This document shows, piece after piece, positions 56,560 through 64,000 of a stretch of DNA of 64,000 nucleotides. The DNA is from Lujinxingiaceae bacterium (GTDB lineage Bacteria; Myxococcota_A; Bradymonadia; Bradymonadales; Bradymonadaceae). The stretch lies in assembly GCA_013697635.1 (NCBI GenBank), contig JACCWM010000133.1:1-64000 (forward strand), in the 5' to 3' direction. Each line of letters opens with the position of its first letter. The first letter of the stretch is position 1. Position numbers and translations under genes: made by a program. Below the pieces are notes generated by a model that saw only the letters and a program-made list of their open reading frames with translations, did not search any database and was not told the DNA's origin.

Positions 56560-58158
56560 GTGTTGATTCGACTCACACATCTCTTGCCCGAGGTCCACGC
56601 ACTGCTCGCCAGCGCCCAAGTGCGCTGGCATGTCGACCGCTACGAGAGCCTCGTCGAAGCCGCGCGCTGGTCGGCGGCGCTCGACACCCTGGAAAAACTC
56701 GCCCAGACGCTGGTCGACGCCGAGGTCTCCGAGCGTGGCTGGCGCATGGTGCTCACCTCGATCACCTTTTGCGCGGCCCGAGGCGATTTATTGGAGGACT
56801 TTTTGCGCCTCTTCGACGCCTACGGCCACCGCGCCTTTGGCCACGAGAGCGCCGCGCAGCCCTGGCAGCTACGCGAGGCATTCGTCGACCAGGATTCACC
56901 GGCCAGCTTTGCCACCTGCGCGGCGATAGGCGAGTTTTTGGCAGGCCGCTTCCCCACGTGCCCGCTCGGCTACTACGTCAGCGCCCACTTCGGTGAGCTT
57001 GTCTACACGCAGAGCACATCGCGCTCGAGCGCATCGCTTCGCCAGATGGTGCAAAACCTCGAGTCCGCCGCGCGCCTGGCCGACGATCACAGCATCGATC
57101 GCGCCGCGCGCCACGGCCGCCTTCGCCTCGGAGTGCTCCTGCTCAAGAGCGGCCTCGACCGCGAGCGCGGCCGTCACTTGCTCAAGGCCATCAGCCCCGA
57201 CACCCTGGTCGCGCGCGAGCAGCTCTGGTATGCGCTGGGCATGCTGCACAGCCCCTTCTGGCTCGATCGCGTGCGCAGCGCCGACGTGCTCGACGCTCTG
57301 GCCGAAGGCCGAAAACGCGCTCGCCCCGGCTATCAGACCGTCGAGGTAAGCGCCATTCGCGAGGCCGCGAGCGCACTATTTCACGCCTCACCCTTCGAGC
57401 TGCAATCGGCCGAAGAGGACCGCCTCACCGAGCTCGCCGCCACGCTCTTCGCCGAGCGCGAAGCGGCCACCTGGCGCGAGCTCTTGCAGATTCGCCCTCA
57501 ACTGCGCGAGCTGCACGCTCTGCCCCTGGATCGAGCCAGCGAGGCGCTGCCCCTGCTCAACCAGCTCGCCCGCCAAGGCGAAAGTTACTGGTTCGATGTC
57601 TTCCATCAGTTCGCGCGCCTGCAAGCCGCCTGGTCTGGCGCCGACGGCCAGTCATCGACCGCGCTCACGCGCCCGGTCGACGAAGAGCGCTACCGCATCA
57701 GCGTGCTCACAAGCGAGCTGCTCGACGCCCTCGAGCGTGATCCGGCATCCAGCGCGGTGACTACCCTGCTCGCCAGCCTTCGCGACGAGCTTCGAAACTT
57801 CGACGGAACTCACGACGCCATGGCCCTCAAACCCGTCACCCTCTTGTGGCCACGCCTGTTCGAGCGCCTCGACCAGCTCGCTGACCGCACCGCCCTGGAC
57901 CCGATCGCGGCCTCCTGGGTCGCGCGCGCCCCGGAACCAAGCTACGGCTTCTGGCCGCTGGCTGCCCACTTCATCAAAGCCGAGCTCCACGGCCCCGCCC
58001 GCGCCGTCGCACGCCGCGCCCTCGGCGACGCCTCCCCTGCCCCCAATGAGCTGCGTCTGCACGTCGTCGGCCACCTCGTCGACCACGCCATCGCCCAAGC
58101 CGAACCCGAGCACATGCTCTTCTGGCTCGAACAACTCAAACGCCTCGAAGCCGCCTGA
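56560..58158 (+). CDS. Unknown helical protein downstream of Hsp70
   Basis: A 532-residue soluble protein from a GTG at 56560, 6 bp after the Hsp70 stop. It is helical throughout, Ala/Leu/Arg-rich, with segments such as 'WSAALDTLEKLAQTLVDAEV' and 'LEDFLRLFDAYGH'. The middle resembles TPR/Sel1-like packing, and it may be related in design to the 457-residue protein at 52210. No catalytic motif was recognised. It ends the coupled run and converges on the MscS gene. Confidence 0.72.
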   Translation: MLIRLTHLLPEVHALLASAQVRWHVDRYESLVEAARWSAALDTLEKLAQTLVDAEVSERGWRMVLTSITFCAARGDLLEDFLRLFDAYGHRAFGHESAAQPWQLREAFVDQDSPASFATCAAIGEFLAGRFPTCPLGYYVSAHFGELVYTQSTSRSSASLRQMVQNLESAARLADDHSIDRAARHGRLRLGVLLLKSGLDRERGRHLLKAISPDTLVAREQLWYALGMLHSPFWLDRVRSADVLDALAEGRKRARPGYQTVEVSAIREAASALFHASPFELQSAEEDRLTELAATLFAEREAATWRELLQIRPQLRELHALPLDRASEALPLLNQLARQGESYWFDVFHQFARLQAAWSGADGQSSTALTRPVDEERYRISVLTSELLDALERDPASSAVTTLLASLRDELRNFDGTHDAMALKPVTLLWPRLFERLDQLADRTALDPIAASWVARAPEPSYGFWPLAAHFIKAELHGPARAVARRALGDASPAPNELRLHVVGHLVDHAIAQAEPEHMLFWLEQLKRLEAA

Positions 58159-59241: not shown

Positions 59242-60198
59242 ATGAGCCGTCACCACTCGCGCGCTACCCGTATCGGCCTTTTGGGCCTGCTCACCGTTTT
59301 CAGCCTGACCAGCACCGCCTGCGCCACCAAGCGTGATTCGGCGCTTGGCCAGGGCAGCCAGATCCTCGCTGCCAGCGGCACGGGTGACTTTCAGATTACG
59401 ATCGAGGCCGCCCAGGCCTCCTGGGAGCGGCGCATCAACCGCGCCGACCTCGAAACCGCGATCGCGCGCTGGGAGCTCGCCGCAACCCAGGCCACGCCCA
59501 ACTTCGACGAGCAACAGCGCGCCGAGGCCGTGGCCGAAATCTACGAGAATCTGACGCGCGCCTACTACTTTTTGGCCGACGCCCACATCCGCCTCGAGGG
59601 CGACGACGAGTCGCAAAACGAAGCCGCGATGATGGCGATCTACGAGCGCGGCATCACGGCCGCCGAGCGCGCCCTCGCGCTTCGCGACCCGGGCTTTGTC
59701 GCCAAGATCGCCGCCGGCGAATCCTGGCAGGACAATGTCGCCCACGCCAACGCCTCGGCCGTGCCCGCTCTGTACTGGTATGCCACCAACCTGGGCCGTT
59801 GGGCCTTGCTCGAGGGCATCGCCACCATCCTGGCTCGAAAAGACGACATCAAGGCCACGATGGACTTCATCATCGCCCATCAGCCCGAGTACTTTCACGG
59901 CGCAGCGCACCGCTATTTCGGCGTCTATTGGACCAAGCTGCCCTTTGGCAAAAAGCCCGAGGAGGCCGGCGTGGCTTTTGTCGAGAGCGTCAAAATCGCG
60001 CCCAACTACTTTGCCACCCGCGTGCTCATCGCCGAGAACCTCGCCACGCTCAACGGCGACCGCGCCCAGTTCGACCTCGAGCTCGACTACGTGCTCAACA
60101 CCCCGGTCGACGTCGTGCCCGAGATCGTGCCCGAGAACACCTTTGAGAAGGAGAAGGCTCGCCGCCTCAAAGCCCGTGGCGATCGGCTCTTCCGCTAA
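59242..60198 (+). CDS. TatT: TPR lipoprotein of a TRAP transporter
   Basis: A 318-residue lipoprotein. The ATG at 59242 has a strong GGAGGA Shine-Dalgarno eight bases ahead. The lipobox 'LTSTAC' is followed by a helical domain that matches the TatT (TRAP-T-associated TPR protein) family: 'AYYFLADAHIRLEGDD', 'YERGITAAERALAL', 'ALYWYATNLGRWALLEG' and 'FGVYWTKLPFGKKPEEA'. In Treponema pallidum, TatT (Tp0956) forms a complex with the TRAP solute-binding protein and is thought to help hand hydrophobic ligands across the periplasm. Here dctP, dctQ and dctM follow directly, giving a complete TPAT system. Confidence 0.9.
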   Translation: MSRHHSRATRIGLLGLLTVFSLTSTACATKRDSALGQGSQILAASGTGDFQITIEAAQASWERRINRADLETAIARWELAATQATPNFDEQQRAEAVAEIYENLTRAYYFLADAHIRLEGDDESQNEAAMMAIYERGITAAERALALRDPGFVAKIAAGESWQDNVAHANASAVPALYWYATNLGRWALLEGIATILARKDDIKATMDFIIAHQPEYFHGAAHRYFGVYWTKLPFGKKPEEAGVAFVESVKIAPNYFATRVLIAENLATLNGDRAQFDLELDYVLNTPVDVVPEIVPENTFEKEKARRLKARGDRLFR

Positions 60199-60278
60199 GA
60201 TTGAGACTTCGCCCTCGCACCGCGCACTCCTTGGGCGTCGCGGCGCGCCGGACTAACCCCTTGACCGGGATTTGGCTT

Positions 60279-61298
60279 ATGAAACGTTCGATTTTATGTC
60301 TGTTTTTTGTGTTGCTCGCGACCGGCCTCGCGCTGCCTGCCTTCGCCCAGGATGCCCCCAAAAAAGAGGAGAAGTTCGTCCTTAACCTGGGCACGATCGC
60401 GCCGCCCGCCACGCCCTGGTCCAATCAGCTCAACTCGATGGCCAAGCGCATCGAGAAAGAATCCGGCGGCCGCATCGAAGTGCGCCTGTTCCTGGGCACG
60501 GCCGGCGGTGAGACGAGCATCGTACGCCAGGCTCGCCGCGGCGAGTTGCAGGGCGCGGCCGTCTCGCTGGGCGCGCTGGCAAGCGCGGTGCCCGAGATGA
60601 ACGTCTTCGAGCTGCCCTATCTCTTCGACAGCTTTACCGAGGCCGACCGGATCATCGACAACCACCTCTATGGCCCGGTCAAGACCCTGCTGGCAACCTA
60701 CGGCTTTGAGCTCTACCTCTTCGGCGAGAACGGCTACCGCAACTTCGCCGCCAAGGGTAAATGCGTTCGAACACCGGCCGATCTGGCCACCCTTCAGATG
60801 CGCGTCCAGGAGTCCTGGGTGCACGAGGAGATGTACCGCGCGCTCAGCGGCAACCCCGTGCGCATCGCTGTTCCCGAGACCCTGCCTGCCCTGCAGACGG
60901 GCAACGTCAACGGCTTTGACAACACCCCGCTCTTTGCCTTTGCCGCGAGCTGGTATCAGGCCGTCGACCACTGGACCATCAGCGACCACATCTATCAGCC
61001 CGCCGCCGTGGTCTACTCCAAGAAATGGTTCGACACCCTGCCGCCCGACCTGCAAAAGGTTCTGCTCGACAACCAGAAGCCCGAGACCGACAACGGCCGC
61101 AAAATGGTGCGCGCGCTCAACCCGCTGCTGATCAACAATCTGCGCGCCGCCAAGATCACCGTCTGTGAGCTCACCGCCGAGGAGAAGGCCGTTTTTGCTA
61201 AAGACAGCAAAAAGGTCCACACGCTCTTCCGCCAGCGCGTTGGCAAGAAGGGCGCCGAGCTGCTCGACATCATCGAAAAAGCTAAAAAAGAGAAGTAA
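60279..61298 (+). CDS. TRAP transporter substrate-binding protein (DctP/TatP)
   Basis: A 339-residue periplasmic protein (ATG at 60279). A standard signal peptide ends 'LPAFAQDA'. 'LNLGTIAPPATPWS', 'GTAGGETSIVRQARRGELQGAA' (read in parts), 'FELPYLFDS' and the substrate-pocket region 'LQMRVQES' with its Arg match DctP proteins, in which the Arg contacts a carboxylate. So the ligand is probably an organic acid. The C-terminus is Lys-rich. It lies 80 bp after tatT and 4 bp before dctQ. Confidence 0.94.
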   Translation: MKRSILCLFFVLLATGLALPAFAQDAPKKEEKFVLNLGTIAPPATPWSNQLNSMAKRIEKESGGRIEVRLFLGTAGGETSIVRQARRGELQGAAVSLGALASAVPEMNVFELPYLFDSFTEADRIIDNHLYGPVKTLLATYGFELYLFGENGYRNFAAKGKCVRTPADLATLQMRVQESWVHEEMYRALSGNPVRIAVPETLPALQTGNVNGFDNTPLFAFAASWYQAVDHWTISDHIYQPAAVVYSKKWFDTLPPDLQKVLLDNQKPETDNGRKMVRALNPLLINNLRAAKITVCELTAEEKAVFAKDSKKVHTLFRQRVGKKGAELLDIIEKAKKEK

Positions 61299-61302
61299 GT
61301 CG

Positions 61303-62385
61303 ATGAAAAAAGAGGACTTGATGTCCCAGGACGCGCCGCTCAGCGCGCGTCTTGGAGTCTTCGGCACGATCGACACGGCCGTCTTCAAAGTGGAGACAGC
61401 CGTGGTCGTCGTCGCCATGATCGCCATGAGCGTGGCCGTTTTTGCCGACGTGGTCTTCCAGTTCGTCTCCCGGCTGATGCAGAGCGCAGCGGCCGGTGAG
61501 AGCTCCTGGATGATCTGGACGGTGCTCGTCGTGGGCTTTGTGGCCATGATGGTCTGGTCCGCGACCGGCGCCGCCGCCCTTCGCGCCGAGCTCGCCCGCG
61601 AGGCCCTCGATGCCGAACAGGCCAAGGCCGTGCCCGTAATCGAGCGCCCCTCGCTGGCCTTTCGCGCCGGCATCACGCTCGCCGCGATTGGCCTCTGCTT
61701 GGGCCTTGGCTTAAGCATGCTCCACGTCGAATCCTCGACCGTCTACCGACTCGTCACCGCCGGACTGCTCTTTGCCGCCGGCAAGGTGCTCTACGATCGC
61801 GGCGATAGGGCACAACTGGCCGCGCTCGTCGCTGCAGGCCTGGTCGTCATCTGGGCGCTGGGCGGCTTGCCCGGTGGCTACTCCTGGGCACAGTCTTACG
61901 GCCTTTTTTTGCTGCTCTGGGTGAGCTTTTTGGGCGCGAGCATCGCCGCGCGCCAGCGCCGCCACCTGCGCGTCGATTTGACCCGCAAGCTGCTCGCCCC
62001 GCGCTGGCTGCCCCACTTCAACGCCCTCTCCTATCTGGTGGCCGCGGCCTTCACGGCGCTGGTCTTCTACCTGGGATTTATCTACCTCTTTGGCGAGGAC
62101 AGCGCCTATCTGCGCCCGATCTGGGAGGCGCCGGGCTGGATGCCCACCGCCTGGCAAGAATCGCTTCGCACCTTCCCCTTGCCCGACGACGCCGGCTTCA
62201 TCCGGCGCATCGCCCAGGTCGTCTTCGGCCCCTCCGAGCCTGGCGAAGTACCCGACTGGCTCAAGGTGCTCTCGATCCCCACGGCCATGGCGCTCATCGT
62301 CATACGCTTTGTCGGCCACGCCGTGGTCTTTGGCCGCATGGCGCTTCGCGGTGAGAGCTTCAGCGAAACCACGGCGGTGCACTGA
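61303..62385 (+). CDS. TRAP transporter small permease (DctQ) with membrane N-terminal extension
   Basis: A 360-residue membrane protein, about twice the usual DctQ length. The last 170 residues carry the DctQ core: 'WVSFLGASIAARQRRHLRVDL', the HxxVD signature with flanking helices, and 'IPTAMALIVIRFVG'. Ahead of it are roughly four or five extra helices, including 'MIWTVLVVGFVAMMVWSATGA', 'FRAGITLAAIGLCLGLGLSML' and 'LAALVAAGLVVIWALGGL' (read in parts). The gene overlaps dctM by one base (TGATG). The function of the added part is not known; it is seen in some TatT-associated systems. Confidence 0.9.
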   Translation: MKKEDLMSQDAPLSARLGVFGTIDTAVFKVETAVVVVAMIAMSVAVFADVVFQFVSRLMQSAAAGESSWMIWTVLVVGFVAMMVWSATGAAALRAELAREALDAEQAKAVPVIERPSLAFRAGITLAAIGLCLGLGLSMLHVESSTVYRLVTAGLLFAAGKVLYDRGDRAQLAALVAAGLVVIWALGGLPGGYSWAQSYGLFLLLWVSFLGASIAARQRRHLRVDLTRKLLAPRWLPHFNALSYLVAAAFTALVFYLGFIYLFGEDSAYLRPIWEAPGWMPTAWQESLRTFPLPDDAGFIRRIAQVVFGPSEPGEVPDWLKVLSIPTAMALIVIRFVGHAVVFGRMALRGESFSETTAVH

Positions 62386-64000
62386 TGATCAACCGATGGA
62401 AGCTCATTATCGGGGTTGTCTCCTGCGCCCTCGCCATGCTGCTCGTCTTCTCAAGCTCGATTTTGGCTCAAGACCAGGTCAAAACGCTTGAACAGCTCAT
62501 GGCCGAGGTCGAGGCCGCTCCTGAAGAAGCCGCGCCCGTCGAGGCCGTGCCCGAGCGCGTCAAGACGCTCGAAGAGCTCATGGCCGATCTCGACGGCACC
62601 GGCGCCGGCGAAAGCAACACTGCACAGGCCCAACAGCCCGAGCAGGTCAACGCCGACGCACCCGCCATCTCGAGCCACTCTTCCAAGACCCACAGCTCGC
62701 CCACCGGCGGCGGTGGCGGCACCTGGTTTTTTGTCGCCCTGATCGCCCTGATCCTCACGATGATTCTGCTCGGTGTGCCGCTCTACGTGCTCATTGGCAG
62801 CCTGACGATGTACTTGCTGTTCTTCGGCGAGATCTTCACCGAGTTTCGCCTGCTCACGGCCGTGATCGAGCAGACCCGCGGCCTCTCCGACCAGACCGTC
62901 TTGCTCGCGATCCCCTTCTTCGTGATCGCCGGCGCCGTGATGACCGAGGGTGATATCGCCCGACGCCTGATCGCCTTTGCCGAGTCGCTCTTTGGGCATT
63001 TGCCCGGCGGCCTAGCGATCTCCACGGTCTTTGCCTGCGCCTTCTTTGCCGCCATCTCCGGCTCATCGCCGGTCACCGTGATCGCGATCGGCAGCATCAT
63101 GTACCCGGCGCTGCTCAAGAAAGGCTATCCCGAGGACTTCTCCTGCGGCCTGGTCACCTCCGGCGGCAGCCTGGGCATCTTGATTCCGCCCAGCATCCCG
63201 ATGATCGTCTACGCGATCGTCGACCCCACGGCGCTACGCGACCCGGTCGGCTACTCGATCTCGAGCATCGGCGGCGGCGAATCGAGCGTCAAAGATCTCT
63301 TCATCGCCGGCATGCTCCCCGGCCTGCTGATCGGCGTCGTGCTCGCCCTCTGGGCCATGCGCATCGGCTTCAAGTTCAACGTCGAGAAGCTGCCCTTCAG
63401 CTTCAAGCGCCTGGTCAAATCCTTCATCAACGGCTTCTGGGCCCTGTTTTTGCCCGTGCTCATCTTAGGCGGCATCTACTCCGGCCTCTTCACCCCCACC
63501 CAGGCCGCCGCTGTCGCCGTCGTCTACGCGATCGCCGTCGAATTCTTCATCCACCGCAGCTTAAGCGTTCGCGACCTGCCCCGCATCTTCGGCGAATCCG
63601 CGGTCTTGATGGGCAGCCTGCTGATCATCATGGCCCTGGCCCTGGGTTTTAACCTCTACCTCGACCGCGCCAAGATCCCCGAGGCCGCCGTCGAGCTGAT
63701 CTTGAGCTACGAGCTGAGCATCATCACTTTCTTGCTCATCGTAAACGTGCTCCTGATCTTCGTCGGCTTCTTCATGGACATCTTGTCCGCCATCCTGATC
63801 CTCGTACCCCTGCTCGCCCCGATAGCCTTTGGCCTCGGCATCCACCCCCTGCACATGGCGATCATCTTCATCGTCAACCTCGAGATCGGCTACCTCACCC
63901 CCCCGATCGGCCTCAATCTCTTCGTCGCCGGCACCCTCTTCAAAAAGGGCCTCGGAGAAGTCGTACGCTCCGTAGTCCCCTTCATGCTCCTGATGCTCGG
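62385..64000 (+). CDS. TRAP transporter large permease (DctM) with N-terminal exported extension, 3' end outside window
   Basis: The frame is open to the window end (538 residues seen). The DctM core starts at about residue 112: 'WFFVALIALILTMILLGVPLYV', 'IPFFVIAGAVMTEG', 'ISGSSPVTVIAIG' with the substrate site motif, 'GILIPPSIPMI', and 'FFMDILSAILILVPLLAPI' (read in parts). It is the 12-helix channel subunit of the sodium-coupled transporter. In front lie a signal-peptide-like helix (about 7-27, ending SILAQDQ) and an acidic Ala/Glu/Pro-rich stretch with two copies of a VKTLEELMA motif. Ordinary DctM proteins start straight with the first core helix. Confidence 0.92.
   Translation, partial: MINRWKLIIGVVSCALAMLLVFSSSILAQDQVKTLEQLMAEVEAAPEEAAPVEAVPERVKTLEELMADLDGTGAGESNTAQAQQPEQVNADAPAISSHSSKTHSSPTGGGGGTWFFVALIALILTMILLGVPLYVLIGSLTMYLLFFGEIFTEFRLLTAVIEQTRGLSDQTVLLAIPFFVIAGAVMTEGDIARRLIAFAESLFGHLPGGLAISTVFACAFFAAISGSSPVTVIAIGSIMYPALLKKGYPEDFSCGLVTSGGSLGILIPPSIPMIVYAIVDPTALRDPVGYSISSIGGGESSVKDLFIAGMLPGLLIGVVLALWAMRIGFKFNVEKLPFSFKRLVKSFINGFWALFLPVLILGGIYSGLFTPTQAAAVAVVYAIAVEFFIHRSLSVRDLPRIFGESAVLMGSLLIIMALALGFNLYLDRAKIPEAAVELILSYELSIITFLLIVNVLLIFVGFFMDILSAILILVPLLAPIAFGLGIHPLHMAIIFIVNLEIGYLTPPIGLNLFVAGTLFKKGLGEVVRSVVPFMLLML

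Follow-up and report, generated by a model that had tools for sequence, protein, structure and literature searches.

Repeated peptides on the DctM arms of a TatT-linked TRAP transporter from a Lujinxingiaceae bacterium: candidate docking sites at the permease

The stretch of DNA analyzed here, referred to below as the window, comprises the first 64,000 nucleotides of contig JACCWM010000133.1 in the genome assembly of a Lujinxingiaceae bacterium (GCA_013697635.1), and at its end lies a four-gene operon for a tripartite ATP-independent periplasmic (TRAP) transporter linked to the putative lipoprotein TatT. Open reading frames (ORFs) and a Pfam profile search place tatT, dctP, dctQ and dctM in this order, all on the + strand, in agreement with the order proposed by a first-pass annotation made from the letters of the window. 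TatT (318 aa; 59242..60198; PF16811, 101.2 bits) is a putative T-component lipoprotein with helices like those of tetratricopeptide repeats (TPR), and is followed by the periplasmic solute-binding protein DctP (339 aa; 60279..61298; PF03480, 195.9 bits) and the small permease subunit DctQ (354 aa; 61321..62385, with an alternative ATG at 61303; PF04290, 61 bits). The DctQ stop overlaps the start of the large permease subunit DctM (637 aa), which is cut by the window end: its in-window part spans 62385..64000, and the ORF reaches 64298 of the contig, 298 bases beyond the window (full ORF, L002:3386-5299). The DctM core is matched by PF06808 (307 bits, in-window part) and by TIGR00786 (378 bits, cut-off 268). 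With PF16811 directly upstream of dctP and the three transporter families all present, the identification as a TPR-associated TRAP (TPAT) system is borne out. The operon lies on contig C65, and at a threshold of E 0.001 the 6.2 Mb genome yields a single match each for PF16811 and PF06808, such that these are the sole TatT and the sole DctM found there.

The PF16811 score of TatT exceeds the cut-off of 26.5 bits, and the closest solved structures by sequence are 8g52_A (E 5e-41) and the TatT protein Tp0956 (3u64, E 1e-4). TatT-linked systems were binned as type A or type B by their TatT score, after which L068 was moved from A to B, L184 and L188 were set aside as B, and L057 and L175 were added to A by hand; the window system falls within type A. 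Its TatT carries Cys27 after a hydrophobic leader, and at the level of sequence this Cys is invariant in all 16 aligned type-A TatT, with A, G or S at +2 in each (Ala in the window protein). In E. coli, the residue at +2 of a lipoprotein Cys (A, G or S) serves as an outer-membrane signal, and by this rule the outer membrane is the probable destination of TatT. The first-pass annotation had described such transporters as known from Treponema; the kinship with TPAT stands, but a restriction to Treponema does not, as 250 of the 377 genomes of the Myxococcota phylum (and 31 of the 57 genomes of the class) match PF16811, so that TatT is not rare in these groups.

DctP begins with a signal peptide, whose end was placed by eye at AFA↓QD, and keeps an arginine, Arg175, at the position of SiaP Arg-147, the correspondence being one of alignment position rather than of direct alignment with SiaP. 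According to the available text of PMC4646407, this arginine is tied to carboxylate ligands and is carried by 96.8% of DctP proteins, with alanine in its place in Treponema Tp0957. Among distinct DctP proteins 59 of the 61 in the type-A bin keep the arginine, while W, F or Y stands there in 33 of the 35 in the type-B bin. The type-A exceptions come from L068 and from the second of the L148 operons, both of them type B by context, and the two type-B DctP with arginine (L057 and L175) are both type A by hand; all four sit in bins that were set by TatT score and are at odds with context. Because the arginine is kept, a carboxylate ligand is expected for the window DctP, and the TatT family, taken together with the arginine, would make this a hydrophobic carboxylate. 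The suggestion that the enlarged permease handles a different ligand class thus finds the evidence pointing the opposite way, and there is no support for this operon having a ligand class of its own.

DctQ is indeed enlarged, although not where it had been thought to be. Alignment with the minimal DctQ proteins (161-162 aa) of the TatT-linked loci L162, L170 and L171 places approximately 130 extra residues between the core helices TM1 and TM2, and the inserted segment (residues 58-188; 61492..61884) contains four predicted helices (63-95, 112-135, 138-160 and 163-181) in an AlphaFold2 (AF2) model with a mean predicted local distance difference test score (pLDDT) of 84. The four-helix core is present: 152 of the 153 residues of the SiaQ chain 7qha_A align on model range 13-342 (Z 11.3, rmsd 3.0), and SiaQ-type Q subunits rank well above the rest in a second structural comparison. 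Foldseek alone gave no match to the model at E 0.001 or better, with 7qha_A at E 0.93. As such, the four or five additional helices that had been proposed are there, and are four in number, whereas their N-terminal placement is ruled out by the alignment, the model and the SiaQ fit alike. Since the number of inserted helices is even, the topology of DctQ is kept. Across the type-A split operons measured the insert ranges from approximately 50 to 150 residues, and the window DctQ has a further, shorter insert ahead of its last helix, one that the alignment shows in its own family.

DctM is likewise extended, and at both ends. A signal-like segment (residues 1-28; 62385..62468; predicted cleavage ILA↓QD, by eye) precedes an acidic arm of some 83 residues (29-111; 62469..62717), close to the roughly 85 of the first-pass annotation; the core follows, and the last ~70 residues, beyond the window, are again acidic. 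Growth of both permease subunits at the N-terminus, as earlier envisaged, thus fails for DctQ and is correct but incomplete for DctM. Removal of the leader as a plain signal peptide, which the first-pass annotation had named as a finding that would speak against its idea, is probably what happens to the leader itself; the acidic arm, which is predicted to be periplasmic, would remain in place afterwards. In four other family members the signal peptides end GFS↓Q, ASA↓Q, AFA↓Q and VCA↓Q (by eye). Each arm carries two copies of a repeat, V-K-(S/T)-L-E-E-(L/M)-M: copy N1, VKTLEQLMAEVE, at 62478..62513 (+; VKTLEQLM), copy N2, VKTLEELMADLD, at 62559..62594 (+; VKTLEELM), and copies C1 and C2 near 64170 and 64251 of the contig, beyond the window (VKTLEQMM and VKTLEELM). 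A tail query against the genome itself matched three places, all inside this DctM, and none elsewhere. In FnSiaQM, the M-domain has 10 membrane helices and two hairpins, and the C-terminus was put in the periplasm, a placement not directly observed (PMC11801797, available text). Given this precedent and the signal peptide of DctM, both DctM ends should face the periplasm.

How widely such tails occur was assessed from 139 DctM with extracted tails, of which 18 were dropped (cut by stretch ends, or duplicate) to leave 121 closed and distinct proteins; DctM scoring below 335 bits with a DctM profile built from the TatT loci are termed ordinary. Tails of at least 40 aa are present in 32 of the 42 A-linked DctM, in 34 of the 36 TPAT-like DctM whose TatT lies outside the fetched stretch, in 13 of 30 B-linked DctM and in none of the 13 ordinary ones, which end 7-14 residues past a reference point near the core end; the strict motif occurs in 20, 22, 0 and 0 of these, respectively. 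When type A is pooled by hand (77 DctM, comprising 68 split and 9 fused to DctQ), such tails are found in 65/68 split and 3/9 fused proteins and the strict motif in 42/68 and 0/9, where 65/68 is not a random sample, one set of its loci having been picked, with preference for long frames, from 150 listed DctM places, of which those of ordinary length were mostly left out. The three tailless split proteins are Bacteriovorax relatives (L162, L170 and L171). The first-pass annotation had set beforehand, as evidence against its idea, the same extensions in many DctQ or DctM without TatT; what we found instead is that all 13 ordinary DctM have tails of 7-14 residues, and that 29 of the 30 genomes with a type-A DctM and TatT outside the fetched stretch have a type-A TatT match elsewhere (G091 being absent from the genomes listed with a match). 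Furthermore, DctQ insert and DctM tail go together in type A: all 64 systems with an insert of at least 40 aa have the tail, as opposed to 2 of 11 without such an insert (Fisher p 4e-10, uncorrected for kinship; insertion values for L186 and L187 were left out).

With a reservation on the search pattern that is given further below, the copies of the motif are not due to chance, as they lie far above the numbers in shuffled tails and recur across families: the 42 A-linked DctM hold 33 strict copies (shuffle mean 0.066, maximum 2) and the 36 TPAT-like DctM hold 35 (mean 0.068, maximum 2), 68 copies together against approximately 0.13 in shuffles. A longer regular expression (regex), applied to loci up to L193 with duplicates kept, matched 49 times in 61,226 DctM residues, never in 120,609 residues of TatT, DctP and DctQ, and 3 times in 1,142,750 residues of other ORFs. 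Positions left free by the regex are biased as well, with V or P at -2 in 45 of 62 units and A at +8 in 37 of 62. One tail query against the phylum found matches in 5 of 188 genomes, at a DctM in G000, G192 and G126 and otherwise on G207:C11 and G092:C72. Beyond Myxococcota, among the few records sampled, the Planctomycetota locus L148 has the motif and L144 a variant. Tails of other kinds were also seen: a repeat like FGGNPNLLD in those of L187:3-1544 (several copies) and L042:4594-6219, and in L084, L085, L087, L113 and L199-L201 longer tails that by eye resemble small folded domains rather than disordered arms. The loci L081-L083, L086, L089, L091, L092, L075-L078 and L080 hold TatT and DctP without nearby DctQM, or TatT alone, and several of these genomes have a type-A DctM on another contig.

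An N-terminal strict motif is found in 5 of the 121 DctM, all of the window's family (L002, which is the window protein, L041, L043, L054 and L186). Within one protein, the N and C units are on average 65% identical (L186 being weakest), compared with 49% for C-C and 43% for N-N units between species, while the cores are 72-80% identical; among 120 permutations pairing N with C arrays, the true one comes first. Such concerted change would be expected from a binding partner shared by the two ends, or from an exchange of sequence between them. A structural view of the arms comes from an AF2 model of the full-length relative L136 (677 aa; 20 rows), in which the arm linkers mostly have pLDDT below 50 and helices 59-74, 636-649 and 665-676 start directly after motif residues Ser58, Thr635 and Thr664, with block pLDDT of ~52-77. 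The pattern S/T-x-x-E is a helix-capping one. The arms are probably disordered, and the motif is predicted to form a short amphipathic helix of consensus V-K-(S/T)-(L/M/I)-E-E-(L/M)-M-x-x-A, in which positions +1, +4 and +5 (hydrophobic by regex) and +8 (free) would form one helix face.

With about even confidence, we read the window system as a TatT-linked TRAP transporter of type A whose DctM arms carry docking peptides that hold TatT and/or DctP at the permease. The arm peptides (VKTLEELMQQLE-type) would be docking sites for a groove on TatT and/or DctP, the TPR-like helices of TatT being the likeliest receptor, and several copies per permease would hold both TatT, which is probably anchored in the outer membrane, and the soluble DctP beside DctQM, so that a hydrophobic carboxylate might be handed from TatT to DctP to DctQM across the periplasm. 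Arms of at least 70 residues could bridge part of that distance. TPR-like folds commonly bind short peptides; because of this, and because the feature belongs to TatT-bearing TRAP systems, TatT would be the first-choice partner and DctP the main alternative. The modified docking of TatT and DctP proposed by the first-pass annotation is plausible, and is strengthened by the repeated peptides.

Several observations weigh against this docking proposal. The longer regex demanded K, R or V as its first residue and was shaped on part of the data, and it matched only 2 of 32 TPAT-type DctM fetched later; with the first residue dropped, a choice made after seeing the data, it matched 21 of the 32 with 33 copies (shuffle mean 0.08), and the general claim of a motif is drawn from the six-residue core and the positions that the regex left unconstrained. 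No strict motif is present in 23 of the 65 tailed split DctM, some of which have variants (SELEGLM, DLNDLT) or unrelated repeats, and across types A and B, 37 tailed TatT-type DctM are without the strict motif, of which 15 have a looser h-x-x-h-M/T pattern (with no shuffle baseline). In the L136 model one motif of four, at residue 98, is not helical. Last, 3/3 closed Bacteriovorax-relative DctM examined and 6/9 fused QM proteins are tailless, 9/9 fused proteins are without the motif, and the B-linked DctM are without tail in 17/30 and without strict motif in 30/30 cases; since tailless TatT-linked systems exist, not every TPAT needs the arms, and all of these counts are phylogenetically non-independent.

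The same data bear on other explanations. If the arms bind DctP or other permeases for assembly or clustering of the transporter, TatT would be merely a co-inherited neighbour; in TRAP transporters it is DctP, after all, that has to dock on DctQM, and the co-occurrence of arms and DctQ insert in type A (64/64 versus 2/11) hints at a role in permease assembly. Ordinary DctM also work with a binding protein, however, and 13/13 are tailless, and we give this possibility some weight while thinking it unlikely. It is more unlikely still that the tails are acidic sequence under low constraint, with an effect on solubility, ions or surface charge, in which repeats arose by replication slippage in the absence of a partner. 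The tails are acidic and simple in composition (D+E 27%, A 15%, aromatic 2%), their repeat number and linkers vary, and some lineages have other repeats or no motif, all as that explanation would have it; but slippage poorly explains why one core is shared by many families and by a Planctomycetota record with different linkers, why the two ends of a single protein have matching arrays, or why positions -2 and +8, left free by the regex, are biased. A third protein encoded outside the operon, such as an outer-membrane porin, a peptidoglycan binder or another helper, might also be what the arms bind, as the TatT or DctPQM genes are apart in many genomes and partners need not be neighbours. Nothing positive supports such a partner, although no systematic search for a recurrent extra gene was made, and we consider it improbable.

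Repeated peptides are also found in type B, at another place than the candidate docking peptides of type A. In the type-B families f1 and f2, DctM is tailless, and the TM1-TM2 loop of DctQ is acidic and contains GFGGGF repeats; the eight DctQ with several such repeats are those of L065, L067, L068, L069, L071, L072, L184 and L188. Seven of these genomes (G001, G007, G009, G013, G021, G022 and G025) also hold type A, with the strict DctM motif in G001, G007, G009 and G013 and a variant of it in G022; in G021 and G025 there is either another repeat or none. It is conceivable, although doubtful, that these peptides act as a barcode, with VKSLEELM helices on the type-A DctM arms and GGFGGGF in the periplasmic type-B DctQ loop each recruiting only their own TatT and DctP as linear-motif tethers that span the periplasm, and two paralogous lipophile relays being kept apart in this way. 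Different repeats on two paralogous systems in one periplasm would have the look of a recognition code, and would equally be the residue of unrelated drift; type B of other families is often without loop and tail, and this speaks against a code of universal reach. Some type-B DctM tails (L126, L232 and L233) contain GETLDDL or ESLEDL in tandem, and the Planctomycetota stretch L148:8851-18804 holds two tandem TatT-DctP-DctQ-DctM operons, the first of type A and the second with an arginine-less DctP. Elsewhere in the window, a 532-aa ORF at 56560-58158 (+) has no Pfam match and adjoins the preceding 865-aa ORF (DnaK/Hsp70-like by eye).

In the TPAT literature, TatT binds its TRAP binding protein, and a contact between TatT and the permease is not described in those parts of the text that were available. 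A TatT trimer that has a hydrophobic pore and is bound to three binding proteins is a further mark by which TPAT systems are defined. No mention of DctM tails or repeats was found in full-text searches of the available literature, including PMC5812351, PMC10942540, PMC11801797 and PMC4646407, subscription papers and preprints lying outside its scope. If the arms are docking peptides, they would name a contact between TatT and the permease, supply a short peptide with which it can be tested, and show physical coupling of a secondary transporter to a carrier that is probably anchored in the outer membrane. Furthermore, the split between arginine-keeping type A and arginine-lacking type B allows the ligand class of many Myxococcota systems to be predicted from their sequences.

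The system closest in kind is the TPAT of Treponema pallidum (Tp0956, Tp0957 and TatQM), in which a TRAP permease and a DctP-type binding protein are likewise encoded with TatT, a lipoprotein with TPR-like helices (PMC5812351, available text). According to the same source, Treponema has a single dctQM homologue, tatQM, and a lipoprotein binding protein, whereas in the window Q and M are separate and DctP has a plain signal peptide; at the arginine position the Treponema protein has alanine (PMC4646407, available text) and the window DctP has Arg175. Set against the described Treponema TPAT, the window system further has the four extra DctQ helices and the DctM peptide arms, the Treponema DctM tail lying outside this comparison. 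BstC of Methylococcus capsulatus belongs to the same superfamily as TatT, as indicated by a weak match between A1 and 7t1s at the profile level (E 0.0012); sterol binding by BstC has been shown, and it is proposed to work with BstA and BstB, not DctQM (PMC10942540, available text). With the classical DctPQM and SiaPQM transporters the window system shares the DctM core, the DctP family, the DctP arginine and the four-helix DctQ core seen in the fit to 7qha_A (Z 11.3), whereas those transporters are without TatT, and all 13 of the ordinary DctM examined end within 7-14 residues of the reference point.

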